Source: a virus
Length of the DNA stretch: 64,000 nucleotides
Reading direction: 5' to 3' (one strand)
Virus record (IMG/VR): IMGVR_UViG_3300020456_000177
Location: 1 to 64,000 of that record
The position numbers were made by a program, and so were the translations under genes. Positions 9,347 through 63,790 of this stretch are shown one piece after another. Position 1 is the first letter of the stretch. Every line of letters begins with the position of its first letter. The notes under the pieces are model-generated. The model ran no database searches and was not told the origin of the DNA. It saw only the letters and a list, made by a program, of their open reading frames with translations.

Positions 9347-9375
9347 GGCATTTGTCTATCTCTAAATGTATTCAT

Positions 9376-9403
9376 ATTATAACATAAAATCAACACTTGA
9401 CAA
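9376..9403 (-). promoter_or_regulatory. Sigma70-type promoter for gp55
   Basis: Minus strand: -35 TTGTCA (9403-9398), 16-bp spacer, -10 TATAAT (9381-9376). It lies in the 86-bp gap before gp55, with the -10 about 30 bp from the start codon. One mismatch in the -35 and a perfect -10 make it a strong host-type promoter for the gp55-47-46 block. Confidence 0.65.
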
Positions 9404-9432
9404 GTAATGAAAACACATGTAGACTAACTCTG

Positions 9433-12290: not shown

Positions 12291-12312
12291 GATGACTTAG
12301 ACTTTACAACCT

Positions 12313-12320
12313 TATTTATT
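12313..12320 (-). promoter_or_regulatory. Late promoter for the gp3-like gene
   Basis: Minus-strand AATAAATA, 23 bp from the gp3-like start and just after the gp23 terminator, so it restarts transcription of gp3-uvsY-uvsW late in infection. Confidence 0.65.
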
Positions 12321-12325
12321 GGCAT

Positions 12326-12350
12326 AAAAAAAGGGGACCTTTCGGTCCCC
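12326..12350 (-). terminator. Intrinsic terminator after gp23
   Basis: Minus strand: a perfect 7-bp stem GGGGACC/GGTCCCC with a 4-nt GAAA loop, followed by seven U. It starts 31 nt after the gp23 stop and would end the very abundant capsid transcript. Confidence 0.92.
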
Positions 12351-12380
12351 TGCACTTCCTTCACACGGATATCTATTATA

Positions 12381-13814
12381 TCACATGAGGTTCTGAACAC
12401 GTACTCTCTGGTAGTAACGGTTAACACCAGGATATACACGTCCAAGTCCTTGGTTGTTGGCATTGCCTTCAGCAAATGGGTTGGAGATAAGACCATAACG
12501 GGTCTTAAAGCCAATTTTGGGCTGGAAGGTGTTCTCTCCAACGGCACGAACCATCTGGAGGGGAACATAAGGACAGTAGAACAGACCAGCATCATAGGGG
12601 CTGGAACCCTTGTAACCGACAACGTAGTACTGGTTAGCAGCACTGTTGGCAGAGAATGGGTCGATGTAGACTCTGTACTTACCGTTGATGGTGCCAGCAA
12701 ATGTGTTGCCGGTGTCATCGACGTTCAGGTTAGCATTCAGAGCAGGGGTGTAATCCAATACACCAGCCATGGTCAGAGCAGAAGCAACATCAGCAGAAGT
12801 CAGGATGATGTTACCCTTCCCTCTACGAGTTCTTTGTGCAATGCGGTTGGCATCTCTTTCGATCTGGAACAGAAGTCCTTTGAACTTCTCAACCGACCAT
12901 CTACCGTTGGAGTCAACGTCGAGGTCGAATGTACCTGCAGTGGCAACGTTTGCCTGAGCACCGTTCTCAGCAACCTTGTAGATCGAACGGATAACCTCAC
13001 GGTTGATTTCAGCAAGGATCTCAGTGCTGAGGATGTTAGCCAGTTCGGCTTCAGCATTCAGACCGTGGATTGCCTTAAGGTCTTGTGCCAGTTCCAGGGA
13101 GTATTCTGCCTTCAGAGCACGGGACTTAGCAGTAACGGTAACTTTCTCGATCGAGAAAGCCATTTCACCGAAGTCCTGCTCACCGGTCTCTCCAAGAGAC
13201 TCGGAAGTGCCGGTCTCCATACCTTGACCGACGTTATACTGAGTACCAATGCCAGTGGTTGTACCAGCACCAGACAGTACAGCAGGGTTGGTTCCACGCT
13301 GATCACCTGTAGTACCGAAACCAACTGCGGCTCCAGTGAAGGGTTGACCAGAGTAGTTGCCAGAAAGAGCACCATCCCTTGTAGAGGAGAATGCGGTATC
13401 GGGCTCGTCGAACAGAGCTTCTGTGCCACCCTGAGTGGAGTAGCGGGAACGCATTGCGAAGATCAGTCCAGTAGGACCATTCATTGGTTGAACACCAGCC
13501 AGGTCATAAGCAACCAGGTTAGGCATAGAACGTCTGATCAGGGAGATCAGAACGGGGTCGAAACCAGCAACAGGACCGGATGCATCAGCACCACCACTGA
13601 AACCACCGGAAGCACCAGCAGCATTAGCAGCATTGGTGGGGGATTCGTTCAGCATTCCACCGTTGTCAAAAGCATGCTGCTCACGCAGGAATTGCTCTTG
13701 GTTCTCAAGCAGAACGGCAGTAACAGCCTTTCTGTGGGAGTCTTTGATAGGATCGCAGGACTCTGCATTCAGCAGAGGACCCCACTTCTCCATAAGTTTA
13801 TCTGAATTGAACAT
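12381..13814 (-). CDS. 23: Major capsid protein (gp23)
   Basis: A 477-aa HK97-fold capsid protein (T4 gp23 is 521 aa). The middle contains FAMRSRYSTQGGTEALFDE and KALKAEYSLELAQDLKAIHGL-type segments diagnostic of T4-like gp23. Gp21 would remove an N-terminal piece; candidate x-x-E sites are LLE near residue 37 and LNE near residue 57, by analogy only. It has a strong AGGAG nine bases before the ATG and a terminator downstream. The region before it has only an imperfect late-promoter match (TAATAAAT at 13841-13848). No gp24 vertex gene follows, unlike T4. Confidence 0.98.
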   Translation of the reverse strand: MFNSDKLMEKWGPLLNAESCDPIKDSHRKAVTAVLLENQEQFLREQHAFDNGGMLNESPTNAANAAGASGGFSGGADASGPVAGFDPVLISLIRRSMPNLVAYDLAGVQPMNGPTGLIFAMRSRYSTQGGTEALFDEPDTAFSSTRDGALSGNYSGQPFTGAAVGFGTTGDQRGTNPAVLSGAGTTTGIGTQYNVGQGMETGTSESLGETGEQDFGEMAFSIEKVTVTAKSRALKAEYSLELAQDLKAIHGLNAEAELANILSTEILAEINREVIRSIYKVAENGAQANVATAGTFDLDVDSNGRWSVEKFKGLLFQIERDANRIAQRTRRGKGNIILTSADVASALTMAGVLDYTPALNANLNVDDTGNTFAGTINGKYRVYIDPFSANSAANQYYVVGYKGSSPYDAGLFYCPYVPLQMVRAVGENTFQPKIGFKTRYGLISNPFAEGNANNQGLGRVYPGVNRYYQRVRVQNLM

Positions 13815-13845
13815 TGTTCTCCTTTAGTTTAAGTTTGAGGATTTA

Positions 13846-14910
13846 TTATTTAATGGTAAGTGCTCTGAGATAGGCAGCCATGTGACCAGATCCCAATTCT
13901 GGTTCTGGATCAGAGACGGCTTCCGAAAGTGTCTCAGTTGCAGCAGTAGTACCCTTCTCAGAAGGGAAATATGATTCCCTCAGGGTAACAATCTTTTCAC
14001 GGTATTCTTCTTCACCCGCAAACTCAACACCTTCAACTAAAGAAGCAAGCTTTTCTTTTTGTGTATCAGCAAGACCTTCTGTTACCTTTGCGAAGATACC
14101 TTCAGCAGTGGTCTCAGCAAGTCTTCCTGTAAGAGCAACATTCTTCTCAATTTGCTCGTTGAGTTTAGACTCCATTTCATCAAGTTTATCTACCATGCTC
14201 TCAAGAACATTGTACTTATCGTCAGGGATAGTGACATAATGATCTTCAAAGAGACTCTTCATTCCAGTAAGGAACGAATCAGTCATTTCGGTCTTCAGAC
14301 CATGCTCAACTTCGATGGCATTCTCAGTAAGCCACTCATCAGCGACATACTCAAGATATGCATCGAGTCTTTCTACCAACTCTTCCTTAACCGAAACAAG
14401 GTTCTCAGAGAGAGCCTTTTCGTATTCAGCAGCAAGAGTTTCTTGGACTTCACTAACCTTGGCTGTCAGAGCAGCCTCGAAAATTGTCTTTGCCTTTTCT
14501 TGGAACTCTTCACTGAGTTCCTCACCACCGAACAGAGCAGCAAGATCTTGATCAACAGAAACTTCAGGAGTCTCTACGATAGCATCTTCTGTCTTCTCTT
14601 CAGTTTCCGCAACTACCTCTTGACCTTCCTCAGCCTCAGTTTCTTCAGCATACTTAGGTGCCTTAGGCATTGCTTCAGCAGGTTTTGCACCCTTATTAAC
14701 GATATCCTTTACTGTTGCCAGAGAAGGAGCCTTGAGTGCAGCCGACATATCATCGGGCTTATAGTTTTCAGGGGTAGGACCACCAAGATCTTCTACTGTA
14801 CCTTGAGCAGCAGTATAAGATGCTTTCTTGGAGGTATCCATGGGGTCTGCGGCTTTCGCACCCCTTGTTACGGGATTTTCCATTTCTTGTAATTCGTTAC
14901 CAGCGGACAT
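13846..14910 (-). CDS. 22: Prohead scaffold core protein (gp22)
   Basis: A 354-aa, strongly acidic, mostly alpha-helical protein in the T4 gp22 position between gp21 and gp23. Long coiled-coil stretches run from about 130 to 300, and many Glu residues could serve as cleavage points for gp21. It forms the internal scaffold around which gp23 assembles and is degraded during maturation. T4 gp22 is shorter (269 aa); the extra length is an acidic, low-complexity N-terminal region (residues 20-120). GGAG precedes the ATG. A late promoter lies at 14950. Confidence 0.9.
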   Translation of the reverse strand: MSAGNELQEMENPVTRGAKAADPMDTSKKASYTAAQGTVEDLGGPTPENYKPDDMSAALKAPSLATVKDIVNKGAKPAEAMPKAPKYAEETEAEEGQEVVAETEEKTEDAIVETPEVSVDQDLAALFGGEELSEEFQEKAKTIFEAALTAKVSEVQETLAAEYEKALSENLVSVKEELVERLDAYLEYVADEWLTENAIEVEHGLKTEMTDSFLTGMKSLFEDHYVTIPDDKYNVLESMVDKLDEMESKLNEQIEKNVALTGRLAETTAEGIFAKVTEGLADTQKEKLASLVEGVEFAGEEEYREKIVTLRESYFPSEKGTTAATETLSEAVSDPEPELGSGHMAAYLRALTIK

Positions 14911-14949
14911 TTTTCGGTTGCTCCGATTTATTAGACTAGTGATAATCTG

Positions 14950-14961
14950 TATTTATTTATT
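14950..14961 (-). promoter_or_regulatory. Late promoter for gp22 (two overlapping copies)
   Basis: Minus strand carries two overlapping AATAAATA matches (14950-14957 and 14954-14961), about 40 bp before gp22, in a 54-bp intergenic gap. Confidence 0.65.
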
Positions 14962-14964
14962 ATT

Positions 14965-15615
14965 TCAGAGATTTTGTAAGAAATCTTGAAATAGATTTAG
15001 TTTATTTTCCTCAAGTCTTCTTTGATCGACAAGAGTATTGACTTTCTTATAGGTTTTCTCAGCATACTTTTCGCGGAGAATTCCACCATCCCAAACCCAA
15101 TCCTTACCTTCCATGATGCCATTTACAAAAGCATCTGGAGCAGAAGGATCTGCAACGATATCAGCAGCAGTGGCAAGCATAAAGTCTTCACCAACTACCT
15201 TAATACCATTACGATCTTCTTTCAGAGAACCCATGCCTCTGGAAGAAACACCGAGTTTGACACCTTCATCAAGAAGGTTCTTGGCAATGGTTCCCATGGG
15301 AGTAGAAAGAATCTGTGCTCTACCTACCCAGTTAGAACCTTCCTGTCTCAGAGAGGTAATCTTGTGGGAAACACGATCAAGGTTAATCGTAGGACCATCA
15401 GGATGACCAAGTTCTCCAAGAGCACGTCCTTTCTGAATGAAAGACTCATTGTATCTACCTACTTCTTTAGCAAGAGTTTCAGCAGGATACATTCTGCCAT
15501 TACGATTCTTGATGTCTCCCTGAAGGAATACACCCTCAATGTAGAGATTCTTCTTACCGTTGCGTTGTTCAACGATAACCTCTACGTTTTCGATTTCCTC
15601 TCTAATAAGTTTCAT
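14965..15615 (-). CDS. 21: Prohead core protease (gp21)
   Basis: A 216-aa serine protease (T4 gp21 is 212 aa) that cleaves scaffold and capsid proteins during head maturation. The catalytic histidine is expected in GELGHPDGP near residue 69 and the serine in LGVSSRGMGS near 123, with the nearby VADPSAPDAF matching the family. It follows the 88-aa gene by 4 nt, in the head operon led by the gp67-like gene. Confidence 0.95.
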   Translation of the reverse strand: MKLIREEIENVEVIVEQRNGKKNLYIEGVFLQGDIKNRNGRMYPAETLAKEVGRYNESFIQKGRALGELGHPDGPTINLDRVSHKITSLRQEGSNWVGRAQILSTPMGTIAKNLLDEGVKLGVSSRGMGSLKEDRNGIKVVGEDFMLATAADIVADPSAPDAFVNGIMEGKDWVWDGGILREKYAEKTYKKVNTLVDQRRLEENKLNLFQDFLQNL

Positions 15616-16113: not shown

Positions 16114-17764
16114 TTACGCCGACATCTAAATCAGTGTCAGTCATTTCATTTCCCCTCTGACGCATATTTTCTTCAGGGGGTTGTTGCTCCATTCCTGGTT
16201 GCATACCAGGTTCCATTTCAAGCATTTGATCGTTAGGATCTGGGATGATACCTCTTTCGATTTCATCTTCGATCTGAGCATCGATCTCAAGAATCTCAGT
16301 ATCTTTCTGTCTCAGAACTTTTCTGCGGACATACTCAGTAGAGTAGTATCTACCAACATATGGTTCTACCTGTTGAAGGAGTGCCATTCTGTTGTTCATC
16401 AGTTCTGCTTCTTTCAGTTCAGCAAAGTGATTATCATAAAGATAATCGAACTGAATGTGCTCAGACATGATCTCCCAATCTTCAGGAGTGCAGATATTCT
16501 TAAGCAGCAGTTGAGTTTTCAGCATATCTAAGAACAGATTGCTAAATCTCTTGCGCAGTCTACCTACAAACTTACTGAAAGAAATCTCATCACGAAGAAT
16601 CTCAGAAGAACGTCCAAGGTTGAAACCATCACCAGAACCAGGCATTCTAGATTCTGGTACACCCAGAGATCTATAAAGTTTCTTCTGGAAGTATTCAATA
16701 TCAGACAGTTCACCTAAATTCTGTCCACCTGGCAGAGTGGTGATCTCAGTTCCTCTACCACCTTCACGACGTGGCAGCCAGAAATCTTCCAGCATGCTCA
16801 TGTATTTCTTATCGTCACGAATCTCACCAGTCTGTGCATTATACACAAGCTTGTTACGATAACGATTCATAACATCACGCAGATATTGTTCTGCCTTTAC
16901 CTTAGGTAGATTACCTACATCGATGTAGAAGATTCTACGTTCTGGTGCTCTGCTCAAACGGTAGATAACCAGAGAATCTTCAATCATTCTCAGTTGATTG
17001 AGAGACTTAGTTGCCTTCTGCAGATAGGAAAGTACAGTGTGACGGTTTCTATCTACAAGACCGGATGTGCAATATGAAATAGAATCTGGAGCAAACTTAA
17101 TACCTTTCTGTCCACCACCCATCGATGGGACTGTAGTGGGGTAATTAATCTTTGGTGTGTAGATAAAGTAATCTTCTAGTTCTGGGAAGACAACTCTCTG
17201 TGCATCATCTACAGATTTTGTGTTAAACAGATCTGCTCTATCTTTATTCTTGTTCTTCTCTTTTCTTACATACCTCATCTTCAGAGCATCGATATATCTC
17301 AACTCTTGAATACCATCCTGAGGTCTCTTGATATCAATTACTTTGTTGTAATAAATTCTTCCATCAACATACCAGTTACGGAAGATCTCATGAGATTTTT
17401 TATCAAAGTCTAGAAGATCTTTGATGTGCTTAAATTCTTTTCTAATTTTATCCTTGATGCCATCACTAGCATTCAAGTTGCTCAGATCAATTTCAACAGG
17501 AGAATCATCTAGATCACTTACAATAGCTTCATTGATTACGTTTTCAATCGCTTGATCACACTCTGGATGGAGTGCCATCTCACGATATCTACGAATCAGT
17601 TCATACTCACTCTTGTAAACACCCTCAAAATCAATTGTCTGGCTACCAAAAGCTGTAGAGACATAAAAATCAGCCCCGTCCTCCTGAGTGGGAGGAACAG
17701 GACTGACTACACCTTTTGATTTATCGTCGTTTTCCTCAATCGAAAAACCAAACAACCTTGCCAT
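16109..17764 (-). CDS. 20: Portal vertex protein (gp20)
   Basis: A 551-aa portal protein (T4 gp20 is 524 aa), the dodecamer through which DNA is packaged and to which the neck binds. Diagnostic segments include IENVINEAIVSDLDDSPVEI near residue 75, RYIDALKMRYVRK, APERRIFYIDVGNLPK and GEIRDDKKYMSMLEDFWLPR. I chose the ATG at 17764 (MARLFGFSIEE). The open frame extends 69 nt further but would run into gp19. It has its own late promoter at 17788-17795. Confidence 0.97.
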   Translation of the reverse strand: MARLFGFSIEENDDKSKGVVSPVPPTQEDGADFYVSTAFGSQTIDFEGVYKSEYELIRRYREMALHPECDQAIENVINEAIVSDLDDSPVEIDLSNLNASDGIKDKIRKEFKHIKDLLDFDKKSHEIFRNWYVDGRIYYNKVIDIKRPQDGIQELRYIDALKMRYVRKEKNKNKDRADLFNTKSVDDAQRVVFPELEDYFIYTPKINYPTTVPSMGGGQKGIKFAPDSISYCTSGLVDRNRHTVLSYLQKATKSLNQLRMIEDSLVIYRLSRAPERRIFYIDVGNLPKVKAEQYLRDVMNRYRNKLVYNAQTGEIRDDKKYMSMLEDFWLPRREGGRGTEITTLPGGQNLGELSDIEYFQKKLYRSLGVPESRMPGSGDGFNLGRSSEILRDEISFSKFVGRLRKRFSNLFLDMLKTQLLLKNICTPEDWEIMSEHIQFDYLYDNHFAELKEAELMNNRMALLQQVEPYVGRYYSTEYVRRKVLRQKDTEILEIDAQIEDEIERGIIPDPNDQMLEMEPGMQPGMEQQPPEENMRQRGNEMTDTDLDVGVI

Positions 17765-17787
17765 CTTAAAGTTTGCGTTTATTGTAC

Positions 17788-17795
17788 TATTTATC
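17788..17795 (-). promoter_or_regulatory. Late promoter for gp20
   Basis: Minus-strand GATAAATA, 24 bp before the gp20 ATG. It overlaps the gp19 stop codon. Confidence 0.7.
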
Positions 17796-18426
17796 AGGCA
17801 ATAGTACCACCGTTTCCAACGGCTTCCCACCACTGAACTTGAAGTTCAACAGTGAACTCTTCGATAGCATCAGTGTTATCGTAGTTCAGATCAATTGCAG
17901 AAACTGCAGTTGGGAAGATTCCATGGAACTGATAACTTCTAAGAATGGGTTGATCAGTTGCACTTTCTTGAGCACCAGCACCACCAGTTACAGGAGCACG
18001 TCCAAGTTGGTGGACAATAGCATCAGTCTGATAATCCAGTGGATCTGTGTTACCAGAGTTATCGGATACCTTAGCAACAGAGTTCATCCATCTTTCGAAG
18101 GAACCTCTGATCGCAAAGTCAGTATCGTTGATAACAGTGATGGTCCATACATCGAATGTTCTGTCACCAGCAATCTTGAGATTACGTCCTCTGAAAGGAA
18201 TGGTGATTGGTGTGATGTTGGATGCTGGAAGGTTTGCACCTTTTACCAGGAATCTGGACTTGGAATCCAGATCATTTACGCTAGGATCGACTACACCATC
18301 GGGGAAGGTCAGAACAACCTCAAACAGATTAGGTCTGGCGATGCCACCAGACAATCTGCTTTTGAATCTGTCGATAGTACGATCAGCTGTCTTTGGGGGA
18401 TTTTGTTGTTGAATTAAGTCTGCCAT
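17794..18426 (-). CDS. 19: Tail tube protein (gp19)
   Basis: A 210-aa tail tube subunit (T4 gp19 is 163 aa). It has the family plan LPASNITPITIPFRGR, then a strand pair, then a helix RGSFERWMNSV, then FHGIFPTAVSAIDLNYD near the end. The extra length is an insertion after the helix (residues about 125-165). It lies between sheath gp18 and portal gp20 as in T4. GAGGT precedes the ATG. Confidence 0.94.
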   Translation of the reverse strand: MADLIQQQNPPKTADRTIDRFKSRLSGGIARPNLFEVVLTFPDGVVDPSVNDLDSKSRFLVKGANLPASNITPITIPFRGRNLKIAGDRTFDVWTITVINDTDFAIRGSFERWMNSVAKVSDNSGNTDPLDYQTDAIVHQLGRAPVTGGAGAQESATDQPILRSYQFHGIFPTAVSAIDLNYDNTDAIEEFTVELQVQWWEAVGNGGTIA

Positions 18427-18446
18427 CGGTTTGTTACCTCTTTAGA

Positions 18447-20627
18447 TTATACTCCGAGAACTTCCTCAAAGCTGACACCCGTGCGAGTGGCAACGAAGGT
18501 CAGACCGATGAAGTTGATGGAACGATTTGGTTTGATGTAGATATCGGCAACAAATTCATTGTTATCGATCACTGCAGCAGTGTTATTCGTCTCATCACAC
18601 TTGACTACGAAGTCAGTGATGCCTCTCTTTGCCTGAACATCACGCAGGAAAGGCTCAACGATGCTAACAAAGTTTGTTCTAGTAATCTCATCGTTGAATT
18701 CGAACATCTGATCTCTGGCAGCAGCAGAAATTGCTTTCTCCAGATAGATGAACAGACGACGAACGTTGATTCTATCGAAGGCAGATGCTCTTGCCAGAGC
18801 AGTCTTATCACCGAACAGAACAATACCGGAACCAGGTGAGAAGATGACAGGGTTTACTCTGTTAGAGTAAAGAACATCTCTCTGTGCCTTGGTTGGGTTG
18901 TATGCCAACTTAACGGCATTCAGGATTGCACCTCTTGTGGTTCCTGCAGGAGAGAACCATGGGAAGTTGTTAATGTCGTTTCTTGCACACAGACCAGCCA
19001 TGTCACCGTTCATTGGGACATATCTGAAGGTATCACCGAATCTGTCATAGGTGTACTTGTAACTGCTATCGAACACCGCATAAGAAGATGAGGTGATAGC
19101 AGAGTAGTAACTTACCAGGTTGTCAGTGATTGTCGATGTGCTATTGAGTGAGATCATAGCACCGTCAGCAAGGAATGCTTGACGATATGGAGAAACAAAT
19201 GCGACGGCATCCTTTCTTTCTTCAGCAACAGCAACAATCTTGTTGGCAATTGCTTGGGTTTCTGCCATGCCATGAGCACCAGATCCCATCAGCAGGTAAT
19301 CGATGTCATAACTATCTGGATTTTCGAACAGGTCATAACCTGTAGCAAGATCACCAACGTTAACCATCAGTCCAGCATTTGTAGTAATGCCAGTTGTGTT
19401 ACCGTAGTCCTTACCACCAGAGAGTGTCAGGGTTTCGTTTCCATATGCATCGAAGGTAGTATCAGATGCTTTCTGATCCCATCCACCATCACCTGCCAGG
19501 GTGAACGTAGTTCCACCAGCACCAGCTGCGAAACCAGTTGTTACAACACCTGTTGGTTGACCACCACCGAAGATATTCTGAGATTGGAATTGTAACCAAC
19601 CTCTCCAGTATTGATCAGTTCCAGCAGAGAACTCAGCATCAGTTGCTTTAGACAGACCCAGATGCTTCTCAAGCAATGTACCAGCATTACCAGAAACTTT
19701 ACCGAGATCGTCATATACTACGACATGAACCTCATCGTTTCTAGCATTGCGAGCAGCACCGTAAGCAGTTGTGGTTGGTCTTTCGGCAACTCTGTTCCAC
19801 TTAACGGTAGATCCAGTGAGAGTGATTGATTGCTGATCGAACCAGTCTAACTGTGCAGTGTAGGTTGACAGACCCTGTTCGTTAGATGCATTGTCATAGA
19901 TGAACAATGCGGTAACACTATCAGCACCGTTAGCAGTGTTAGAGAATCTGTAGATACCACCAGGTGTATAGTCTCTGTTGGTTACAGTATTGTCAGCAGC
20001 AACGTGTGCTACAAACTTAACATCAACATTGGTTCCGTCTACGTTGGTGACAACTCCTTTGAAGTAACCATCGAGAACAGAAGTCGATCCGGCACCAGGA
20101 ACAACAGTGTTGGCAGGTACTCTCTGAGTAACACCGTATCCAACCTGTAGAGCTGTACCAGAATAACCAGTCAGTCTTTGGTCTGCTTTACCATCAATAA
20201 TGGCAACTTTGAGACCGTTTGACCAGGTTCCTGGGTTCTTGGCAACAAAGGTAACATTGTTGATCGTGTTAGTATCATACCCTTGGTTGGTGTAGTCCTC
20301 TGGACTCTTAACCTTGATACTAGTTGCAGATCCAACTTTACCATTGTAGAGACCAGCATTGTCTGATCTTACAACTCTTGCTACCCCACCATAGGCAAGA
20401 TAGGAAGAAGCAGTATACCAATACTCATATTGGTTATTTGCTGCATGGGGTTCACCGAAATTGTTAAGCAAGTCTGCTTCAGTTTCGACTAATGTGGGAG
20501 TTTCTACTGGTCCTTTTTCAAATGGAGCAACGATGCCAGCAACTTTATCAGAAGTGGGATCTACGCGTCCAGCCGTAAGGTCTACTTCCCTTACGACAAT
20601 ACCAGGAGATGCTAAATTCAGTGGCAT
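18447..20627 (-). CDS. 18: Tail sheath protein (gp18)
   Basis: A 726-aa contractile sheath protein (T4 gp18 is 659 aa). The N-terminus LASPGIVVREVDLTAG and the C-terminal half (RGAILNAVKLAYNPTKAQRDVLY, then INVRRLFIYLEKAI and FVVKCDETNN) are diagnostic of the T4 sheath. The middle (about 150-420) is the variable surface domain. An AAGGAG Shine-Dalgarno sequence and a late promoter (20663-20670) lie upstream. Confidence 0.97.
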   Translation of the reverse strand: MPLNLASPGIVVREVDLTAGRVDPTSDKVAGIVAPFEKGPVETPTLVETEADLLNNFGEPHAANNQYEYWYTASSYLAYGGVARVVRSDNAGLYNGKVGSATSIKVKSPEDYTNQGYDTNTINNVTFVAKNPGTWSNGLKVAIIDGKADQRLTGYSGTALQVGYGVTQRVPANTVVPGAGSTSVLDGYFKGVVTNVDGTNVDVKFVAHVAADNTVTNRDYTPGGIYRFSNTANGADSVTALFIYDNASNEQGLSTYTAQLDWFDQQSITLTGSTVKWNRVAERPTTTAYGAARNARNDEVHVVVYDDLGKVSGNAGTLLEKHLGLSKATDAEFSAGTDQYWRGWLQFQSQNIFGGGQPTGVVTTGFAAGAGGTTFTLAGDGGWDQKASDTTFDAYGNETLTLSGGKDYGNTTGITTNAGLMVNVGDLATGYDLFENPDSYDIDYLLMGSGAHGMAETQAIANKIVAVAEERKDAVAFVSPYRQAFLADGAMISLNSTSTITDNLVSYYSAITSSSYAVFDSSYKYTYDRFGDTFRYVPMNGDMAGLCARNDINNFPWFSPAGTTRGAILNAVKLAYNPTKAQRDVLYSNRVNPVIFSPGSGIVLFGDKTALARASAFDRINVRRLFIYLEKAISAAARDQMFEFNDEITRTNFVSIVEPFLRDVQAKRGITDFVVKCDETNNTAAVIDNNEFVADIYIKPNRSINFIGLTFVATRTGVSFEEVLGV

Positions 20628-52900: not shown

Positions 52901-54503
52901 TAATGTCATACTTAAGATCTGTATTAATGCCAGTGAGATTTCCATTTACAGTAATGGCATTAGTGTTTAGATTGATCGTTTGAACTTCTAAATTAGTCGC
53001 ATCAATCTCTTGAGAAGATCTTCTTACAATATCAACACGGTCTCCTACCTTCAGACTGGATCTATCAATCGAAGATTGTACATTAAAGGTAGATCCATTG
53101 AAACTGGATACAAAATACCTTGAAGAGCTGTTATAGACCCAAGAGTTAAAGAATACTTTTTTGTAACTGATATCTTCATCACTATTGTCAATAACTTCTC
53201 CAAGATTTTTTACAGAAATGATAGAATTCTCTTCTGAAGAGAAAACATTATCATCTGTCTTCAATCCTTTCAATACACCGGTAAGGGTGAAGATTACTGG
53301 TTTGGTGAGATCATTATTTTCATATGCATATACCTGAAGATCTTGAATAATCTCAGATCTTGGATTAATGGCACTAGTAATTCCGGTACAACCCAAAAAT
53401 TGGGTAACTGTCTTGTCAGTATATGTGACAGTGCTCATTCCGACTTGGAATGTTCCAGATTGCGGGAATCCGATAGTGGAATCAACAGTAATTACAGAAT
53501 CGGTAGTTTCTGTGGTTCCAATAGTGAAACTACTGCCAGGAATGATAAAAGTGCCTTCTACAAGACTCTCATCACCAAATCCAGTGAATAGGGAAATCTT
53601 ATAGTAGGTTTGTCTGCCAATATCATCTGTGGTGCCTCTAGTAAAGATTTCTACTTCCGAGATGGGTCCACTAGCAGCACCAATACCGATATTGGTTTGT
53701 GCATCTTGGAAAAGAGTAGCACCGGAGATCAGTTTTGGATTTCCGCTGATTAGTTTGGCAACAACTACCTTTCTGCGAATAAATTCGGCAGAAGAAGGTC
53801 TCGAAAGGAATTGTTCCAGATCAATGACCTTGGAATCTACACCAAACAGAACTTTGAGCAGAATCTTGATCGATTCTTCCGTGCCTTTGCTCTGATATAA
53901 ACTTCTAGACTCTTTAATGAAATTATTGACACTCAGATCAGGAGCAAATGCTACATTCTCTAATCCGGGTGTATAAAGTCCTTTTAATTTGTTATAAAAC
54001 TCTTTCAGGAACAGAGCACTGAGATTTTGTACTGCAGTGCCGTTAGAATGGTCAGCCGCAACACTTGTGGAGAATACTAACTCCTCTGGTTGGTTTGGAG
54101 CATGATAAGATGTAATACCGGAGAATCCACGGACACATCCCGTGAAAGAATTCGTTGTTACTCCAGTATATGTGATAATTTCATCATTTAAACGGAAAAG
54201 TCCGTATTCTTCAGGGAATCCTTTCGTATTAGTTACAAAAATCTCCGTATCTGTGCTATTAACAGCAGAAGATACCGTAGACATCCCGACAATGATCTCG
54301 GGAGTCAATTTATCAAGTTTTAGATACTTATCTAAGTTCTCAGCAATATCTACAGGACCACCAGCATACTCTTGAGACGTATAGTACGATCTCAGAAAAT
54401 CCACTACAAGTGGATTCTCATCTTTGATAAACTCAGGCAGTTGACTGTCTACAACTTGCTGAATTTTAACTCTAGATTCGAATACGGAATTCGTGTTTAT
54501 CAT
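40956..54503 (-). CDS. 7: Giant baseplate wedge protein, gp7-like
   Basis: A 4515-aa protein, over four times T4 gp7 (1032 aa), in the gp7 position between gp6 and gp8. Residues about 15-260 resemble the C-terminal part of T4 gp7: IKDENPLVVDFLRSYY, then LYQSKGTEESIKILLKVLFG. A YHYH-type domain lies near 1215-1370 (HSPIIGWSYDGVPIYG, VYAYYATID). HxFxTGDxVxY modules recur between about 600 and 2000. Three long repeats with MTVTxxxHxL...GDxVRLxNxxF lie near 3340-3750. A beta-propeller-like region (PDGERLYVLDG, STDGTRMYVIGQG, STNGEKMLVIGAD) lies near 4100-4355. It overlaps gp6 by ATGA. Confidence 0.85.
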   Translation of the reverse strand: MINTNSVFESRVKIQQVVDSQLPEFIKDENPLVVDFLRSYYTSQEYAGGPVDIAENLDKYLKLDKLTPEIIVGMSTVSSAVNSTDTEIFVTNTKGFPEEYGLFRLNDEIITYTGVTTNSFTGCVRGFSGITSYHAPNQPEELVFSTSVAADHSNGTAVQNLSALFLKEFYNKLKGLYTPGLENVAFAPDLSVNNFIKESRSLYQSKGTEESIKILLKVLFGVDSKVIDLEQFLSRPSSAEFIRRKVVVAKLISGNPKLISGATLFQDAQTNIGIGAASGPISEVEIFTRGTTDDIGRQTYYKISLFTGFGDESLVEGTFIIPGSSFTIGTTETTDSVITVDSTIGFPQSGTFQVGMSTVTYTDKTVTQFLGCTGITSAINPRSEIIQDLQVYAYENNDLTKPVIFTLTGVLKGLKTDDNVFSSEENSIISVKNLGEVIDNSDEDISYKKVFFNSWVYNSSSRYFVSSFNGSTFNVQSSIDRSSLKVGDRVDIVRRSSQEIDATNLEVQTINLNTNAITVNGNLTGINTDLKYDIRKRISKATSVGSTLSAGNDALASDILNAYNENNDFGYVASNSLPSYEIRPVTTKVNIATASTTSGAILGYDSNTLNYDTLAFSANVPFVTGDEVFYDPEVTPIIGLHTGSYYVNVDSANPNRVKLALSKSFLDAQSFVRFTPSNNGPHEFILSEQRVDEIQPQKLLKKFPLSQNLMSGNDTTTEPGPTGMLINGVEIVNYKSDDSVYYGPITNVGIFTGGSNYDAANAPSVVVSDPEVSTGTTALVQPVVSGSFVDVEVDPVSFDIEEIVSINITGGNGEGATASATLASEFREVFFNANSLANGGGVSAADNTITFDTVHNFQTGDSIVYNDLGTPALGISTDSANDAIQNLTLQSGEIYFSRFINSRTVQLFNTKAEAQSGINTIGITTENNAGLMKFRTTNKKLKLDRINILNPGQSYSNRKLIVKSTGINTANDTIVFNNHNFTDGDFVEYEFFDTGVVGLSTTTRYKVLAVDNKSFRLANAGVGGTNLTDYIRRKHVALDSVGVGSHIFKYPAIEVTINAVTTQQTAGQFTATPVVRGAIVDAYLYEEGSDYGSETLNFEKVPKLTVTSGSGAAVSPIIINGRIENAFVQNGGSGYTSPPELEVTSSPVGIATTGTGARLRALINNVGVVTDVVVLGKGQNYDINTTSIKVNSVGSGAILNGFVRKLQVNKFAKINDNGGEIVNPTPRNGLEYAAIGYGSTFRVEFGDGGSAHSPIIGWSYDGVPIYGSYGYVDPENIQSGIKRVGTGYTSVITNITNRPSTTVFPPGFFVDDFVYDGSGDLDEYNGRFAITNEFPNGVYAYYATIDTIGNPEFPFFVGPHYRCAPIAENLDPAVKISQAFDFNNSDLVRNTFPQKIGDSAASYDFVIEPYKVFVQDAIVESISRGSFDSVSVAATGNGKYGVGDVVNFIEFAPGEGTGLAAEVSSIVGKSVVSIASTDEIYENVVVKWKNSKEVELVSDVNFDLIDQDVVQITGLSTFVKDLTGSQVANTINPISNLVVGFGTTGVSGMVTDISVANIPVSIGNSIKVSTETLGVLNVFDADGIIRVKRYPSETANGGVAHTATESVSYLPQAFTVNVETPYFESKDQDVIYFNPFESIGIGITAGFTTARSYQFNGVTTTRTIQTQNIFLPNHPFVTNQHLAYVGSGTSTIGISTSPTGNRFDMPADVFAIKTSKDTIGIATVLNGDKVYFRDVTNTDFYDYVLQSQYQQITADVKKVTATVTTGEDHNLENADVIKLDLKSNLTRGVGAGSSIVLKIAKDNLLVNPVAISSAGVNTSTNVITLTDHEYSTGDKVFYESTEVIGGLTTGTFYIYTIDKDNFSLGETERDIQVFPPNIVSLTSVGGTSQSIARINPPLSVYKNDDVVFNLEDTSLTGFEFKIYYDQDFFNSTVSTGQTDSFLINSSGTIGSAGAALTVSYSTNFPEILYYNVERSGFISTADKTVTGYNEIQYNNSVFSGEYSISGVTSTTYGINLTHVPERVSYASTECDLLKYTTKSTSANGSIDKVDLIFPGLDYKKFPSISSITSGLGTDTVLRLNSSTVGKLDTVRLLTPGFSYPSDKTLSPEASIPNELNVRDYQTLFSVSILSGGRNFQTPPNVILYNPSTNEVVPDFQGSTELAGNSVSPTVDGVPGVRIDKNPVGLEDDVVYEAYTVNNDNGVSIVSVASTQNNNVTLQIATPVLGFTTAPFQVGDSIFVEGIGMGGTTGEGHNSADYGYQKFTVASYDSTSNPNLLTYNLNSFVSAGASVGVAQTTPSLFAQVILAEDLPILRVTKQNARFEPGELLYVNSDFSNGSTDLTVISFNDLTGKLNISGSTRIESGDTLTGGTSGSKCTIDNVVSYVGSFEIDAFSDVTRGWKDDIGKLSEDYSVMGDNDYYQRMSYSIQSEKTFDDVISYVNENVHPSGFKNFKDMQLTPSASLLNGQNVGASLTTAQEEPFLVLDVIADEGALRVDTINDFDFARDVDATTTTSKSIDLENIRITDYILNKTNRVIPIDDISGQFLGGPQDEFLSYADVFQFASGRRTNKFLVQTRNITENDELNVREVILVANSNNTYTLEKAGAGDSIGEYDGSYDGVQYALRFSPNDPDDVDYEIKALQTIFTNNTGFGSQAIGFVDLYSQQVTIGAANTSTILGFTTAITDTIYGSFEIYDSTDDRTDYVEVVLTHNDDDTHLTEVAAFNTNVGLNGLSGPFIGTFGSDLTSGVMNLVYHNDGANEVTVKSQIIGIGTTATGIGTYRFAPQGTPAGAERTGRFESNFALVTGGTKTKIAGISSTVDGSAKALVRVSIGETQAIHQVYITNDSTSQVETDVASFAYASVNDVNGIGTFSAEYSNDGVDIMFHPDYSGDIEAQTFSEIIYTELDQNSNDDGVGGTTYGGITQQALHSVYFGLNQRDKTAFEAKHNGSPIYAKTLDPSNTGILSTTTGTFTMDHFFYSGEELQYRAESNLAGVAGTGIVYQSGAGTTARLPETVYAIRLNQGRFRVAISTANALAGTAATFTAVGSGNQHIFSMVKRASKTLLTIDNIAQGPISRTPFEEQTMHAVGAGTSIIQLSGIASARANDILRINDEYMRITTVGLGSTNASGITGLSTLPLAEVTRGYVGSSAVAHGQFDTVTLYRGAFNIIDSTIHFTEPPRGPGITRLNDRNLPLPRSSFQGRVYLRKDYDTNAVFDDIADEFDGTKSNFILTSDKQNITGIGTTGGNGVVFINGIFQSPSSPNNPDNNFGITESSGISSITFTGVRSDTGQIIDPSDINKNQLPRGGVPITFGSTTGLGFAPLVPAEVIPTVTLGQLTAVSGVSTTSPNVSITNVNYDNVTGVMTVTAANHELTVGDKIRLRNIQFTCPANGPFTNNFTYPSDKGVSFDISSFVYDNLTGLSTVGLTSAHNFRVGRMVHLEGIEFSCAAPHAGVTTTIFPDGSSGRKAVDINKYPIIGIAGTNSFLVNVGVCTIPHNYVGNGTAFEVKPTGPYYATKILSDSQFETQVGIVTFAHTYNTGGTVAKWNNATFGSGYSTVTAPAIAVTEAGHTGAEALVSATVGAGGTLIFTINQAGSGYVDPTINIAPPSYDNLTIEGVSRLSVGATTEVGLGMSVTVGVLGINTHYNNIPIVDFDYTDTIGIATVSAVGHGFTSGDVVRLKNLQFSPAAPVGSGGTIFPHSDISVDYTVLQYVDENRFTVNIGIADTQGVGYAYSAGTGGVAISGVGATMFEVKQFDIPKRGYGFLKGDVFRITGITTDPTAGDNYQDFTLTIVDAFQDNFASWQFGELDYIDSVKAFQDGINARFPLAYNDQLISFETDPTDPDSVLIDIKYLLLVFVNGILQVPGESYEFFGGTSILFSEAPAPEDNVDIFFYRGTGGDDSFLKDVYETLKPGDEVRLKRTPLIEKNDAAYDFSNFSQEYKRTIVGIKSSSEIETTLYRGEGVNTVEPKPLSWTKQKVDKFLGGTWIPKARDSIEAQVYPTAKIISNVVSTGTTQIFVDNNELFLGATGNTNELGAIMISGFSTAGIGSTTTVPTEVITGILPGGVRGYQGIVTGIQTSFARLEEFTGFDVSKTVYRKQLGLTDGTNNDPQGLFIRPDGERLYVLDGNTLRVTAWNLSTAFELDTATIDNTNHIGIGTQLQSVFDLDFSTDGTRMYVIGQGAAAPFVFQVNQFNLTTPWELTSVLPAGVSTNTTISNQGQLHRSLQVVNSGQQMITLSPSQACFRNYDFGTNFDITTISFGSSIAVTDDAAPSDFNFSTNGEKMLVIGADTQRFLEYNLTSGWDISTLGIGSTSSYVLGAGVSHSSTIKPDGERVFLVSNAGVGSQFHFSVPPAGLGLIFQLDLTDVPGGLAERQELVRGYRMLVYDTAVGTGVTTIVGSAISTGIGTDNVIGISSNNLDNIYEVYYSQFDGTNGIATCFVDPATNIVGIATTGDYHNPAGKMTWGRITGYDRGTPAVNILPDGNHFDVGMSTYPTFQRRNSGLRDTGALKKSL

Positions 54504-56407
54504 TGTCTACTTAATTGTCCGTTAGTATAACTGGATGCTACTGGGAAACCAACTCCTGAAATTTGTTCACCTGATGCAATGGTGTCCCTTGCCATATTTA
54601 TGGTGCTATTCGAGATATCTAGTTGCAAATACAGGTCTTTCAGACCAATCACATCATTGGACTCTGGAACTGCCTGAATTTCAATAATATCGTCATTTTT
54701 AACAGTAGATGTAATATTGATGGCATTAATAATAATTTCACCCTTCATGTAGTCCACTGTACCGGCATTAGGAACGACAACAACGGGTCCAGACTCAGAT
54801 TCCTTAACAACAGAGATTACACCCGTCTTATAACCGGTATTAGGCACGTCTGTGAAGAATACTACTTCAGAGGATCCCTCTACAGTAAATCCTGTGCTCT
54901 TAATATTGAATCCTTCAGATACAACGTGGAATTGGTTGCCATAGCAAATCTCATATTGAGTATACTGGTTAATCAGTGCTCTCAAATTGCGTCTAATAAT
55001 GATATTTGTGATATTTGACGTAATTGCATAATTCGTATCGTCAATAACCTTGATTGCTCTGCTATATTTGAATCTACCACCAAAAGCATTCAAATCAACC
55101 GAATCTGAGTAACTATTCAGACTAGAAACAACATCAGTCTTAAGTTGATTAGCATCAGTAACCTTACTTGTGTCGTAGAATACTGTAGAATCCAATTCTA
55201 CGTACAAAAGCTTCAAATCTTCGATTCTTTGGTTTACACCTGCAACAGTATACTTCTTCAAATCTTGTAAAATCTCACTTTTGGTGAAATCCGACAAAAA
55301 TGTGCCATTTTTTGGTTTAATGCTCAAAACGACTGTTCCAAATTCTGGTGGATCCAGTTCTTCACCACCTACAACAGAAACAGACTCAGTATCTGGATAC
55401 ACTCTCTGCACGATTGCCTCATAATCTCTTGCAGTGACTGCTCTATACTGAGAAGAGTATAATCTAGGTGCAAAATACTTGATAGACTCAACTGGTTCAA
55501 TATCAGCACCGTTAATGGCACTTTGATTAGTAGTTACGGTAACTGTATTCGATGGTAAGAAAGAAACCATCAAACTATTCTCTACAGTTCCTACAAATGA
55601 GAAGTTTGCGGCACCATTTCCGGTTGTTCCATCACTAATGATGTAAGATACTTCGATTACTGCTCCATTTTCTAATTTTTTACCGAAAATTCCGTCACCA
55701 AACAGCAATTCGTATCTTTCATCCGCAATCTCTTGCAATAAGTAGATTTCTGAAATGGAAGAAATATCAATAATGTTCTCTACTTGTCTATATTCTCTTC
55801 CTGTAGTTTCTTGAGGTCCTTTTACAGTAACTCTGATCGTACTTGTGTCAATTCCAGGGTTATCAAGGATAAACCTCTGATCCTCCGATTGGTTGACCGT
55901 GAATGCCTTTGTAAGGAGTGTTCCTTGGTAGATATCGATATTGTTAAACGTAGACCTTCTAGGTCCATTTCCGTTGGTTGCAGCACCAGTCAATACTGTG
56001 GTTGTTGTGATGTCCTCAGGAATGGAAAATACAACAGATGTGTTATCTTGAGCACCAACACAGACCAAACCCTTCTTTAAAGTGGTCGATGGACTAGTTC
56101 CAGTGAATTCAATGTTGAAACTCACCTGCGCCGTCGCAGATTTTCTGGATCTAGGGACATAACCAATGTTTCTTGCCAAAGAAACTACGTTTTCACGCAC
56201 AGTTGCCGAATCGATGAACGATTCATTGACAACCATGTTAGAATTGAACGCAGTAATGTACGTATTATACGCAAGCGTGTCAATTAAAACGGAAAAATTT
56301 GATCCTTCAAAGTCAAAATCCGTAAAATTGGAGTTTGAACGCAAATAAGACTTAATTTGCGTCTTTATTTGATCAAAATCTAGATCTGTAAACTTAGTTA
56401 ATGGCAT
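54500..56407 (-). CDS. 6: Baseplate wedge protein (gp6)
   Basis: A 635-aa wedge protein (T4 gp6 is 660 aa), J-like fold. Diagnostic: TDLDFDQIKTQIKSYLRSN, then FEGSNFSVLIDTLAYNTY, FIDSATVRENVVSLARNIGYVPRS and APRLYSSQYRAVTARDYEAIV. It begins one base after the gp25 stop. Its last 100 nt contain a likely late promoter for gp7-like. Confidence 0.96.
   Translation of the reverse strand: MPLTKFTDLDFDQIKTQIKSYLRSNSNFTDFDFEGSNFSVLIDTLAYNTYITAFNSNMVVNESFIDSATVRENVVSLARNIGYVPRSRKSATAQVSFNIEFTGTSPSTTLKKGLVCVGAQDNTSVVFSIPEDITTTTVLTGAATNGNGPRRSTFNNIDIYQGTLLTKAFTVNQSEDQRFILDNPGIDTSTIRVTVKGPQETTGREYRQVENIIDISSISEIYLLQEIADERYELLFGDGIFGKKLENGAVIEVSYIISDGTTGNGAANFSFVGTVENSLMVSFLPSNTVTVTTNQSAINGADIEPVESIKYFAPRLYSSQYRAVTARDYEAIVQRVYPDTESVSVVGGEELDPPEFGTVVLSIKPKNGTFLSDFTKSEILQDLKKYTVAGVNQRIEDLKLLYVELDSTVFYDTSKVTDANQLKTDVVSSLNSYSDSVDLNAFGGRFKYSRAIKVIDDTNYAITSNITNIIIRRNLRALINQYTQYEICYGNQFHVVSEGFNIKSTGFTVEGSSEVVFFTDVPNTGYKTGVISVVKESESGPVVVVPNAGTVDYMKGEIIINAINITSTVKNDDIIEIQAVPESNDVIGLKDLYLQLDISNSTINMARDTIASGEQISGVGFPVASSYTNGQLSRQ
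54595..54602 (-). promoter_or_regulatory. Probable late promoter inside gp6 for gp7-like
   Basis: Minus-strand CATAAATA, about 92 bp before the gp7-like ATG, within the gp6 coding region. No other late site precedes the giant gene. Confidence 0.5.
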
Positions 56408-56408
56408 T

Positions 56409-56810
56409 TTATCTCGTTACCTCAAGTAAAAAAGAGATATTTTGGGGTGGAAGGTCTTGTCCAACAATATCGAATGCTACAGTTACCTCAAAACTGTTAT
56501 CATCGGGTCTTGGTTCGACTGAAACGTTCAAATTTGCCGCTCTTGGCTCATAATTGAGGATAGTTTCAGTAATTTGGTCTGTAATTATGGATGCAGTTCC
56601 ATAATCTACGAACTCAAACAAAGAACTCCTTACATTAGACCCCAAATCAGGGTTAAAAAACCTCTCAGTAGGAATTGTCTCGACCAGATTCCTTACTGAT
56701 CGAGCAATTGCACGTTCGTTTACCAATACTGGGAGGTCTTTTGTTACTGGGTGAGGTTTAAATGACAGTGAAATGTCTTTAAATGCTCTAGAAACCCTTG
56801 TCGAAGCCAT
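56409..56810 (-). CDS. 25: Baseplate wedge protein (gp25)
   Basis: A 133-aa protein (T4 gp25 is 132 aa), the lysozyme-like-named wedge component that nucleates sheath assembly. SFKPHPVTKDLPVLVNERAIARSVRNLV and ERFFNPDLGSNVRSSLFE are diagnostic. A late promoter (56839-56846) lies 28 bp upstream and leads the gp25-gp6-gp7 operon. Confidence 0.96.
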   Translation of the reverse strand: MASTRVSRAFKDISLSFKPHPVTKDLPVLVNERAIARSVRNLVETIPTERFFNPDLGSNVRSSLFEFVDYGTASIITDQITETILNYEPRAANLNVSVEPRPDDNSFEVTVAFDIVGQDLPPQNISFLLEVTR

Positions 56811-61765: not shown

Positions 61766-61987
61766 TTATTCCTCACAGTAATACCAGAGATCTCCATCCT
61801 TTCCTACATTATTACTCGATGGTGTCGAAGCTGTACTGACGGTCACATTGGACTCTGGTGCGTTCGGAGTGAACTTTGCGTCCACTTCTTCCTTCGAATA
61901 CACATCAGATATCTTACCTGTTACCCACAGATTACCTTCGATGGTCTTGAATAGTTGACCAGACGTATGATCCTTTTCTAGTTTCAT
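61766..61987 (-). CDS. Small fibre-associated protein, 73 aa
   Basis: Begins MKLEKDHTSGQLFKTIEGNLWVTGK and ends GKDGDLWYYCEE, with a Ser/Thr-rich linker. The GDLWYY ending is typical of phage fibre tips and caps. I chose the ATG at 61987, with GAGGAAGG directly upstream and an ATGA overlap with the AbrB-like stop, over a TTG at 62008. Confidence 0.6.
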   Translation of the reverse strand: MKLEKDHTSGQLFKTIEGNLWVTGKISDVYSKEEVDAKFTPNAPESNVTVSTASTPSSNNVGKDGDLWYYCEE

Positions 61988-62157
61988 GCCTTCCTCAGAA
62001 TTAAACAACCGTCTTCTTCATCTATAATCCACTCTAACTTATCTCCTTCTTCCCATCCCATATCCATACACATCCAATCGGGGATCGTAATGATAGGCTC
62101 ACCAGTTACCGGGTCGATCTCTACGGTCGTTGTCTCATGTCCGAAATTTTTATCCAT
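61984..62157 (-). CDS. AbrB/SpoVT-like regulator, 57 aa
   Basis: A 57-aa protein: an N-terminal strand TTTVEIDPVTGEPIITIPDWM, then MGWEEGDKLEWIIDEEDGCLILRKA. The GDKLEW...GxLIL pattern is the swapped-hairpin DNA-binding fold of AbrB/MazE-type antitoxins and transition regulators. It lies at the front of the fibre cluster and 200 bp beyond a perfect sigma70 promoter, so it could regulate that unit. It overlaps the next gene by ATGA. No toxin gene is adjacent. Confidence 0.65.
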   Translation of the reverse strand: MDKNFGHETTTVEIDPVTGEPIITIPDWMCMDMGWEEGDKLEWIIDEEDGCLILRKA

Positions 62158-62363
62158 ACCCAATAAACCCTATACCGTTTTTATATATGGGAAAAAAATT
62201 TTGAAATCGACCGGAATCGTTATAACGAACTCGATCTGGGTCGTTTATAGCTTAGAGGGACCCTTTAAATTATAAACCCCCATCGCAGGCACCGAAGGCA
62301 TCAACGAAGGGGGGATATAACTGCCAGCACACTAACACTGACTGCCGAAGGATTCACTCCCTC
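62158..62363 (-). promoter_or_regulatory. About 200-nt leader before the AbrB-like gene
   Basis: No gene is supported here. It is the 5' leader from the 62364-62392 promoter to the AbrB-like start. It holds an 18-codon ORF without a Shine-Dalgarno sequence, a second TATAAT-like stretch (about 62268-62273) and two of the four ACTGCC motifs. Control by the AbrB-like product is a guess. Confidence 0.4.
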
Positions 62364-62392
62364 ATTATAACATAAGGACTGCCAGTTGTCAA
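62364..62392 (-). promoter_or_regulatory. Perfect sigma70 promoter before the AbrB-like gene
   Basis: Minus strand: -35 TTGACA (62392-62387), 17-bp spacer, -10 TATAAT (62369-62364). No mismatch to the bacterial consensus, a strong candidate early promoter. It points to the AbrB-like gene and the fibre cluster. Confidence 0.8.
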
Positions 62393-62400
62393 CACATTAC

Positions 62401-62423
62401 CTGTGGAAAAACCTGTGGAAAAC
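62401..62423. repeat. Two tandem DnaA-box-like repeats
   Basis: Two copies of CTGTGGAAAA start at 62401 and 62413 on the plus strand. The minus strand reads TTTTCCACA twice (62410-62402 and 62422-62414), which is the DnaA-box consensus of Synechococcus. Confidence 0.75.
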
Positions 62424-62433
62424 TAACACATAG

Positions 62434-62577
62434 TCATGCACAGTACCTGTCAGCCAACTGCTCATAATGTCCTACTTGATCATAGTCATCATCTGCATAG
62501 TTTGTGTCATAAACCTCCCCCATATCATAGAGTTCGCATATACTCTCATAGTCGTCATAAGTATAATCCTCACCCAT
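62434..62577 (-). CDS. Small acidic tyrosine-rich protein, 47 aa
   Basis: A 47-aa protein starting MGEDYTYDDYESICELYDMG and ending EQLADRYCA, with strong acidity and eight Tyr. ATG at 62577 with AGGGGT upstream, TGA at 62434. A sigma70-like promoter and a NATAAATA lie just upstream. It resembles other tiny acidic early phage proteins, perhaps a DNA mimic, but this is not shown. Confidence 0.55.
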   Translation of the reverse strand: MGEDYTYDDYESICELYDMGEVYDTNYADDDYDQVGHYEQLADRYCA

Positions 62578-62605
62578 GATTGAGACCCCTGACTGACACT
62601 GTGGT

Positions 62606-62636
62606 ATTATACCATATTTATCACTGACACTGCCAA
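62606..62636 (-). promoter_or_regulatory. Promoter candidates before the 47-aa gene
   Basis: Minus strand: -35 TTGGCA (62636-62631), 19-bp spacer, -10 TATAAT (62611-62606). A late-type GATAAATA (62615-62622) lies in the spacer. The 19-bp spacing is long for sigma70. Confidence 0.5.
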
Positions 62637-62671
62637 TTGTAAGGGTTCTGTGATATTTTGAGTCCTGGGGG

Positions 62672-62700
62672 TTGACAACACTCTCTCTTCATGATATGCT
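62672..62700 (+). promoter_or_regulatory. Plus-strand sigma70-like promoter
   Basis: TTGACA (62672-62677), 17-bp spacer, TATGCT (62695-62700, two mismatches). It points right, away from the leftward promoter at 62392 and against all genes in the window. It may drive a small RNA. Confidence 0.4.
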
Positions 62701-62857
62701 CACTTAACTTACATCAACACCGCACATTAAAGTATATTTAATTCACCCTTTTTTAACTGTGCAAAATAACACCTAAACCTACTATCTATAAGTGATTTTC
62801 AAGAGCACAAATTAGGAGACATCACTGTCTACAACTGCGATGCGCAAAAATAACAAA

Positions 62858-62891
62858 GTTTTCCACAGATATGCCAAAACCTGTGGAAAAC
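62858..62891. repeat. 11-bp inverted repeat made of two DnaA-box-like sequences
   Basis: GTTTTCCACAG (62858-62868) and CTGTGGAAAAC (62881-62891) are perfect complements separated by 12 bases. Each contains TTTTCCACA. No U-run follows on either strand, so a terminator is unlikely. Confidence 0.8.
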
Positions 62892-62944
62892 TCTATGTTT
62901 AGTTTATGTTAATTTTATGCGAAAAAACCCTCGTTTATATACCC

Positions 62945-63407: not shown

Positions 63408-63602
63408 TTAGTTAGTAGTGGTAAGATCAGGAATAAAGAGAAACTCATATTCACCATCTTCTGGATCTTTACCATCAACAATCCATTCATTCATGACGGC
63501 AAAAGCATCATCAGGATTGTTCAACTTTACATGTGCAGTAACAAGATCAAACAGTGATTCAGACATATTATCGACGCAGGATTGACGTTGCTTGTTGTTC
63601 AT
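63408..63602 (-). CDS. Small acidic protein coupled to the HicA-like gene
   Basis: A 64-aa acidic protein starting MNNKQRQSCVDNMSESLFDLV and ending GEYEFLFIPDLTTTN. The end vaguely recalls the DGxYxxxxPDL strand of HicB antitoxins, but it comes at the C-terminus and the rest does not fit. Its ATG overlaps the HicA-like stop (ATGA), so the two are made together. A partner or antitoxin role is speculation. Confidence 0.55.
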   Translation of the reverse strand: MNNKQRQSCVDNMSESLFDLVTAHVKLNNPDDAFAVMNEWIVDGKDPEDGEYEFLFIPDLTTTN

Positions 63603-63790
63603 AACTGTGTGATTGAGTTGATGTACTTTTGGGTGAGAAATTGGATGCCTGGAGATACATCCTTGTGTTGTTTGGGAACAACTAGATTATGGCACACATT
63701 TGGGTGTTTGTAAACATGGTGCTTCCCCCCAGTTCTTACTAATTCAATGCCATGAGATGATAACATCTTGATGAATGTTTTGTATTTCAT
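63599..63790 (-). CDS. HicA-like mRNA-interferase-fold protein
   Basis: A 63-aa protein with the HicA (YcfA-like) pattern: KTFIKMLSSHGIELVRTGGKHHVYKHP, then LVVPKQHKDVSPGIQFLTQKYI. The key histidine of the HicA active site is expected in GGKHHVYKHP. HicA toxins are small double-stranded-RNA-binding-like RNases. The ATG at 63790 is only 5 nt beyond the U-run of the terminator at 63796 and no Shine-Dalgarno sequence is visible, so expression may be weak or the start may be internal (ATG at 63766). Confidence 0.75.
   Translation of the reverse strand: MKYKTFIKMLSSHGIELVRTGGKHHVYKHPNVCHNLVVPKQHKDVSPGIQFLTQKYINSITQL

Follow-up and report, generated by a model that had tools for sequence, protein, structure and literature searches.

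In phage T4, origins depend on MotA-activated middle promoters and do without DnaA, and DnaA-assisted plasmid and phage origins, such as P1 oriR, have DnaA boxes adjoining an AT-rich region. To our knowledge, a replication origin has yet to be assigned for any T4-like cyanophage; T4-type replication is not known to need DnaA, and phages of this type are viewed as not relying on the host protein. In the cyanobacteria S. elongatus, Anabaena and Cyanothece 51142, oriC contains paired or clustered TTTTCCACA boxes in intergenic, AT-rich surroundings, and domain IV of Cyanothece DnaA binds in vitro to two TTTTCCACA located 2 nt apart, a single box not being clearly bound (PMC4674748). DnaA-trio repeats adjoining the boxes are a trait of bacterial oriC-type origins (PMC8287927). 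The main genome comparison of T4-like cyanophages does not mention DnaA (PMC3037559), and the open literature that we searched yielded nothing relevant on DnaA boxes, or on an origin of such kind, in cyanophages.

The region described here lies in a 64,000-nt stretch of viral DNA, analysed as a whole (the window), from a 65,718-base record. This contig covers part of a T4-like cyanophage genome, with phrog matches for tail sheath, portal and major head protein and with genes for gp6, gp25 and a member of the Kyanoviridae family Gp96. We consider the region most likely to be a replication-origin-type region of T4-like cyanophages (Kyanoviridae) able to dock host DnaA, a proposal to which we give about an even chance. 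It resembles the cyanobacterial oriC in its paired and clustered TTTTCCACA, its intergenic location and its modestly AT-rich surroundings, and shares a close direct pair with the Cyanothece oriC (PMC4674748). However, it is carried by a lytic phage genome, away from dnaN and without a skew switch, and it has a conserved promoter pointing back from the genes as well as inverted pairs with gaps of 4, 14–15 or 25–26 bp. As in T4 R-loop-type origins, a T4-like phage here has a promoter with an AT-rich stretch downstream of it, but this promoter is of the host sigma70 type. Boxes next to an AT-rich region, and iteron-like repeats in some relatives, recall P1 oriR-type origins, whereas no cognate initiator gene was identified and the phage is a lytic T4-like one that encodes replication proteins itself. 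Boxes for the host initiator in a conserved region would couple replication of the phage, or its early transcription, to that initiator, and the site is an exact target for experiments in the culturable phages Syn9, S-PM2, S-SM2 and P-TIM68.

The DnaA-box cluster of the window

A previous sequence-only reading had reported four TTTTCCACA within 490 bp and no further copy in the 64,000-nt window. An exact count bears this out, and the count over the entire 65,718-base record gave no copy outside the cluster (Table 1). Shuffling the window gives an expectation of 1.3 TTTTCCACA per 64 kb; at least four copies anywhere in the window were reached by 6 of 100 shuffles, which makes their number mildly unusual, whereas the expectation for four copies inside 490 bp is about 2e-7 (Poisson approximation). 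One-mismatch sites show no window-wide enrichment (16 versus 29 expected). A chance origin of the cluster is ruled out by this clustering together with the phased spacing in relatives described below.

Both pairs are intergenic on a map of minus-strand genes. The direct pair is present as originally described; the inverted repeat, given as 11 bp, is indeed perfect but extends to 12 bp. The spot of a fifth, weak box reads TTTTCCACA and TTTTCCCCA in two relatives (L407 and L406, respectively). The AT-rich stretch noticed between the pairs is a fair description of a modest feature (0.71 AT at 62720–62760, 0.80 in the richest 40 bp of the box region), and its counterparts in relatives are of the TTAAAAAA type. 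The promoters expected on both strands were matched by a promoter scan (minus strand 62392–62364, plus strand 62672–62700). Beyond the plus-strand promoter, the only plus-strand ORFs are short ones that run antisense to genes on the other strand, and no gene is evidently served. The candidate promoter at 62606–62636, with a spacer above the usual length, would serve the 47-aa gene, and L406 has a similar sequence. The early region of the window also holds a HicA-type toxin family gene at 63599–63790(−) (Pfam PF07927, above cut-off) besides the small MazE/AbrB-like protein encoded at 61984–62163. Among phage records, DNA matches of the box region were limited to S-SKS1 records; the IMG/VR contig 3300021356_001301 (L405) is 99.9% identical to the window across 5.95 kb and stops short of the boxes.

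Table 1. Features of the box region and its synteny anchors, in window coordinates.
Feature	Position	Strand	Remarks
Inverted pair of convergent DnaA boxes	62857–62892		TTTTCCACA at 62859–62867(+) and 62882–62890(−), gap 14 bp; arms AGTTTTCCACAG 62857–62868 and CTGTGGAAAACT 62881–62892
Weak DnaA box TTTTGCACA	62758–62766	−	fifth box
AT-rich stretch, candidate unwinding element	62722–62757		minus strand reads GTTAAAAAAGGGTGAATTAAATATACTTTAAT
Back-pointing promoter TTGACA-N17-TATGCT, TG extension	62672–62700	+	faces the inverted pair across the AT-rich stretch
Candidate extended −10 promoter TTGGCA-N19-TATAAT	62606–62636	−	TGG ahead of −10; by eye
Acidic 47-aa ORF	62434–62577	−	between the box pairs; similar ORF readable in L406
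Direct pair of DnaA boxes	62402–62422	−	TTTTCCACA at 62402–62410(−) and 62414–62422(−), gap 3 bp
Perfect sigma70 promoter	62364–62392	−	12/12, 17-bp spacer; adjoins the direct pair on its gene side
59-aa gene, phrog_661	61984–62163	−	behind the perfect promoter; weak MazE-like match, below curated cut-off
gp25, baseplate wedge	56409–56810	−	synteny anchor
gp6, baseplate wedge	54500–56407	−	synteny anchor

Spacing and position of the boxes in T4-like cyanophages

Box pairs were collected from IMG/VR by DNA pattern alone, with every spacing in the searched range admissible, and the resulting loci form our sample. At the 111 cyanophage-like loci among the matches listed, 87 of 93 inverted gaps measured 3–5, 14–16 or 25 bp; for direct pairs, 110 of 128 gaps measured 2–3, 12–13 or 23–24 bp, in classes chosen after viewing the histogram and at loci that are interrelated, so that very small p values for the phasing overstate the case. 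The gaps of the window (14 bp inverted, 3 bp direct) belong to the modal classes among these matches. Such increments, each close to a helical turn, suggest that proteins bind along one face of the DNA, and the gap counts correspond to the spacing fit for cooperative protein binding found in oriC-type regions. A further exact box was present no more than 1.3 kb from the first pair at 26 of 56 loci among the matches listed, and a second paired group at 14. The window and a 182-kb record (G001) have in common the order of an inverted pair followed by a direct pair. Phased TTTTCCACA pairs were also observed, among the matches listed, in 77 viral loci of L007–L216 without cyanophage similarity (for example L059); these are unrelated to the reference cyanophages and have a higher G+C content (mean 0.47).

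Proteins similar to those of reference T4-like cyanophages are encoded in 139 of the 210 box-pair loci among the matches listed. Within the same matches, the nearest homologous gene lay at most 8 kb from the S-SM2 cluster for 93 of 120 loci (10 expected), from the Syn9 cluster for 92 of 115, and from the window cluster for 74 of 76 (19 expected). The shared location is a run of small genes immediately upstream of gp25–gp6, S-PM2 and DSL-LC03 being assigned to this place via shared neighbours only. As in an oriC-type replicon, the DnaA-box cluster is unique, both in the record of the window and in six whole cyanophage genomes, with one cluster each in Syn9, S-SM2, P-TIM68, DSL-LC03, S-PM2 and G001; it lies at 52.6 kb in Syn9, at 58.2 kb in P-TIM68 and at 19.2 kb in S-PM2. 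Neither dnaA nor dnaN adjoins it in the window, where the neighbours are small phage genes and gp25–gp6. S-SKS1 carries one TTTTCCACA and two TTATCCACA, spaced by 21 bp each (151,414–151,464), and the T4 genome has no cluster of TTTTCCACA or TTATCCACA.

A composite module in which the boxes are optional

The k-mers enriched close to the boxes include CTTAGCACG and TTGACA. The CTTAGCACG element is located about 50–165 bp gene-ward of the boxes and, with a single exception, is oriented the same way. When the whole of IMG/VR was scanned with this element alone, 58 distinct sites were obtained, with exact boxes at most 220 bp upstream of 42 and downstream of 1. The other 16 comprise one site cut by a contig end and 15 that look chance-like by eye, without the surrounding sequence; boxes thus accompany 42 of the 42 untruncated sites judged real. 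The consensus of 21 sites extends over about 130 bp. Read on the opposite strand, CTTAGCACG is an extended −10 promoter, TTGACA-N14-TGN-TA, often with a weakly matched −10 hexamer, that is directed over the AT-rich stretch to the boxes and to which the early promoters run opposite. In 2.18 Mb searched, 53 of 69 such back-pointing promoters were located at boxes (2.8 expected), and in S-SM2, P-TIM68 and S-PM2 this promoter is the sole such minus-strand match in the genome. The AT-rich element is found on its transcribed side in 18 of 59 cases and on the other side in 4 of 59, for an expectation of 2.9. Averaged over loci, the AT enrichment is modest (0.69 versus 0.62), though a TTAAAAAA-type stretch recurs. 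Judged by sequence alone, the phased boxes are one component of a larger non-coding module that also has an AT-rich stretch of the TTAAAAAA type and, as its promoter, TTGACA-N14-TGNTA, with the succession of promoter and candidate unwinding element on the transcribed side that is typical of T4 R-loop-type origins.

Relatives were also sampled by a flanking gene, independently of the boxes. In this sample, exact boxes were present in only 1 of the 20 relatives having enough upstream sequence, and among 18 cyanophage isolates examined, 6 (about one third) carry them, so that universality of the boxes is rejected. Loss in close relatives had been named as a point against the region: boxes are indeed absent from most relatives at about 81–85% protein identity. 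At 90% protein identity, L406 and L407 still have boxes, in altered spacing. Near-box variants in the box-less relatives did not exceed the control. P-SSM2, Bellamy, S-SRM01 and several contigs, all box-less, retain the back-pointing promoter together with a TTAAAAAA-type AT-rich stretch (position confirmed through annotation in P-SSM2 and Bellamy). The boxes are therefore optional, since the core of the module occurs without them. The sequence-only reading had singled out the boxes and overlooked their optional status, the wider module that survives without them and the role of the back-pointing promoter.

Other repeats were observed in the module. A box-less relative (L479:645–821) has seven iteron-like copies of the 22-bp TAATACTCATTAAAACCTTATG, with an AT-rich stretch on one side and the back-pointing promoter on the other, some 8.2 kb upstream from the phrog_1574 gene of this relative, and two 55-bp repeats fill the module region of L453. 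Inverted repeats of the TTGAGAATCAA type occur within the module of S-SRM01 (L580), DSL-LC03 (about 80,220–80,290), L438 and L479, once (in DSL-LC03) alongside DnaA boxes.

Proposed origin function and competing explanations

The DNA-binding domain of DnaA (DnaA_C) is absent from 17 cyanophage records (that of the window and 16 others), and no phage-encoded DnaA was found in these records. Synechococcus WH7803, the host of S-PM2, has a DnaA with an intact FGGKDHTTV recognition motif (DHTTV). Throughout the WH7803 chromosome TTTTCCACA occurs at chance level, and the dnaN flank contains one-mismatch boxes only; binding of the WH7803 protein to the phage boxes is for these reasons no better than likely. 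The phage boxes fit the cyanobacterial consensus better than the dnaN-side boxes of WH7803 and RCC307. Beside dnaN, these two strains have degenerate boxes only, inspection by eye revealed no shared sequence, and host oriC was rejected as the source of the boxes.

In the proposed mechanism, host DnaA would dock on the phased pairs and help to open the adjoining AT-rich stretch. The host-type promoter, directed against the genes across this stretch, would supply an RNA that keeps it open or primes synthesis, much as a promoter and its downstream unwinding element do at T4 origins, after which replication would pass to the T4-type proteins encoded by the phage. Box-less phages retain the promoter and the AT-rich stretch, some of them with other repeats. 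Binding by DnaA, opening of the stretch, activity of the promoter and initiation of replication at the module are steps that we infer. Somewhat more tentatively, T4-like cyanophages may have a defined origin with exchangeable recognition sites, some lineages recruiting host DnaA and others carrying different repeats, in each case around a shared AT-rich stretch and a primer promoter that points back.

The main rival is control of transcription, host DnaA bound to the pairs activating or repressing adjacent sigma70 promoters of small early genes while replication starts elsewhere. The direct pair of the window stops 10 bp ahead of the −35 of the 12/12 promoter, and gene-ward sigma70 promoters are enriched about fivefold near inverted pairs, many at 127–240 bp. 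We nevertheless regard this explanation as rather unlikely, as it leaves unexplained the joint conservation, even without boxes, of the AT-rich stretch and of a back-pointing promoter that serves no evident gene. It is quite improbable that a phage-encoded protein with a DnaA-like recognition sequence binds the motif instead. The presence or absence of boxes independently of the rest of the module and the chance-level frequency of the exact motif in the host chromosome would suit such a protein. The motif core is, however, the cyanobacterial DnaA consensus, the S-SKS1 array, mixing TTATCCACA with TTTTCCACA, has the degeneracy expected of DnaA, and the phages lack a DnaA-type domain, although such a protein could have another fold.

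Very improbable, in our opinion, is a decoy function, whereby high-affinity phased boxes pull DnaA off a weak host oriC and halt host replication. The closer fit of the phage boxes to the consensus is what a decoy would show, but there are merely 2–8 boxes per genome, titration requires neither a fixed position nor fixed partners such as the AT-rich stretch and promoter, and other repeats replace the boxes in relatives. The least probable explanation, which we hardly credit, is that the inverted repeat acts as an RNA hairpin or terminator and not as a protein site. A scan marks a terminator-like stem at 62896–62853 on the minus strand, yet only 5 of its 18 pairs are G–C and Rfam gives sub-threshold matches only for a known RNA at the box region. 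As a sole role it is rejected because direct pairs of the same core, unable to form such hairpins, carry the same phasing.

The earlier proposal of an origin or host-DnaA control region gains from features that can be read directly in the genomes: clustered boxes, phased spacing, synteny, co-occurring parts of a conserved module, an intact DnaA motif in one host and no DnaA domain in the phage records. It loses from the missing skew turning point at the cluster and the lack of boxes in most relatives sampled. GC skew, which had been suggested as a check, has no turning point there, and neither do AT and purine skew, in a window where skew is confounded by one-sided gene orientation. The origin reading is weakened by the lack of a skew switch, the modest mean AT enrichment and the missing boxes of most relatives, and also by the chance-level and one-mismatch boxes of WH7803 and the presumed DnaA independence of T4-type replication. 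An S-PM2 mutant is deleted for 5,799–15,339 (PMC4503421); this deletion spares the boxes at 19,231 and is compatible with the origin idea.

Two observations concern annotated genomes. The tRNA genes annotated in the S-PM2 record NC_006820 at 17,414–19,333 (L244) lie in part over DnaA boxes; ARAGORN predicts none there, and their coordinates look misplaced. In WH7803, at about 177.5 kb (L402:1024–1336), TTTTTCACA and TTTTCCACA are located 2 bp apart with a third box about 290 bp further, in or near a small gene that may be controlled by DnaA.
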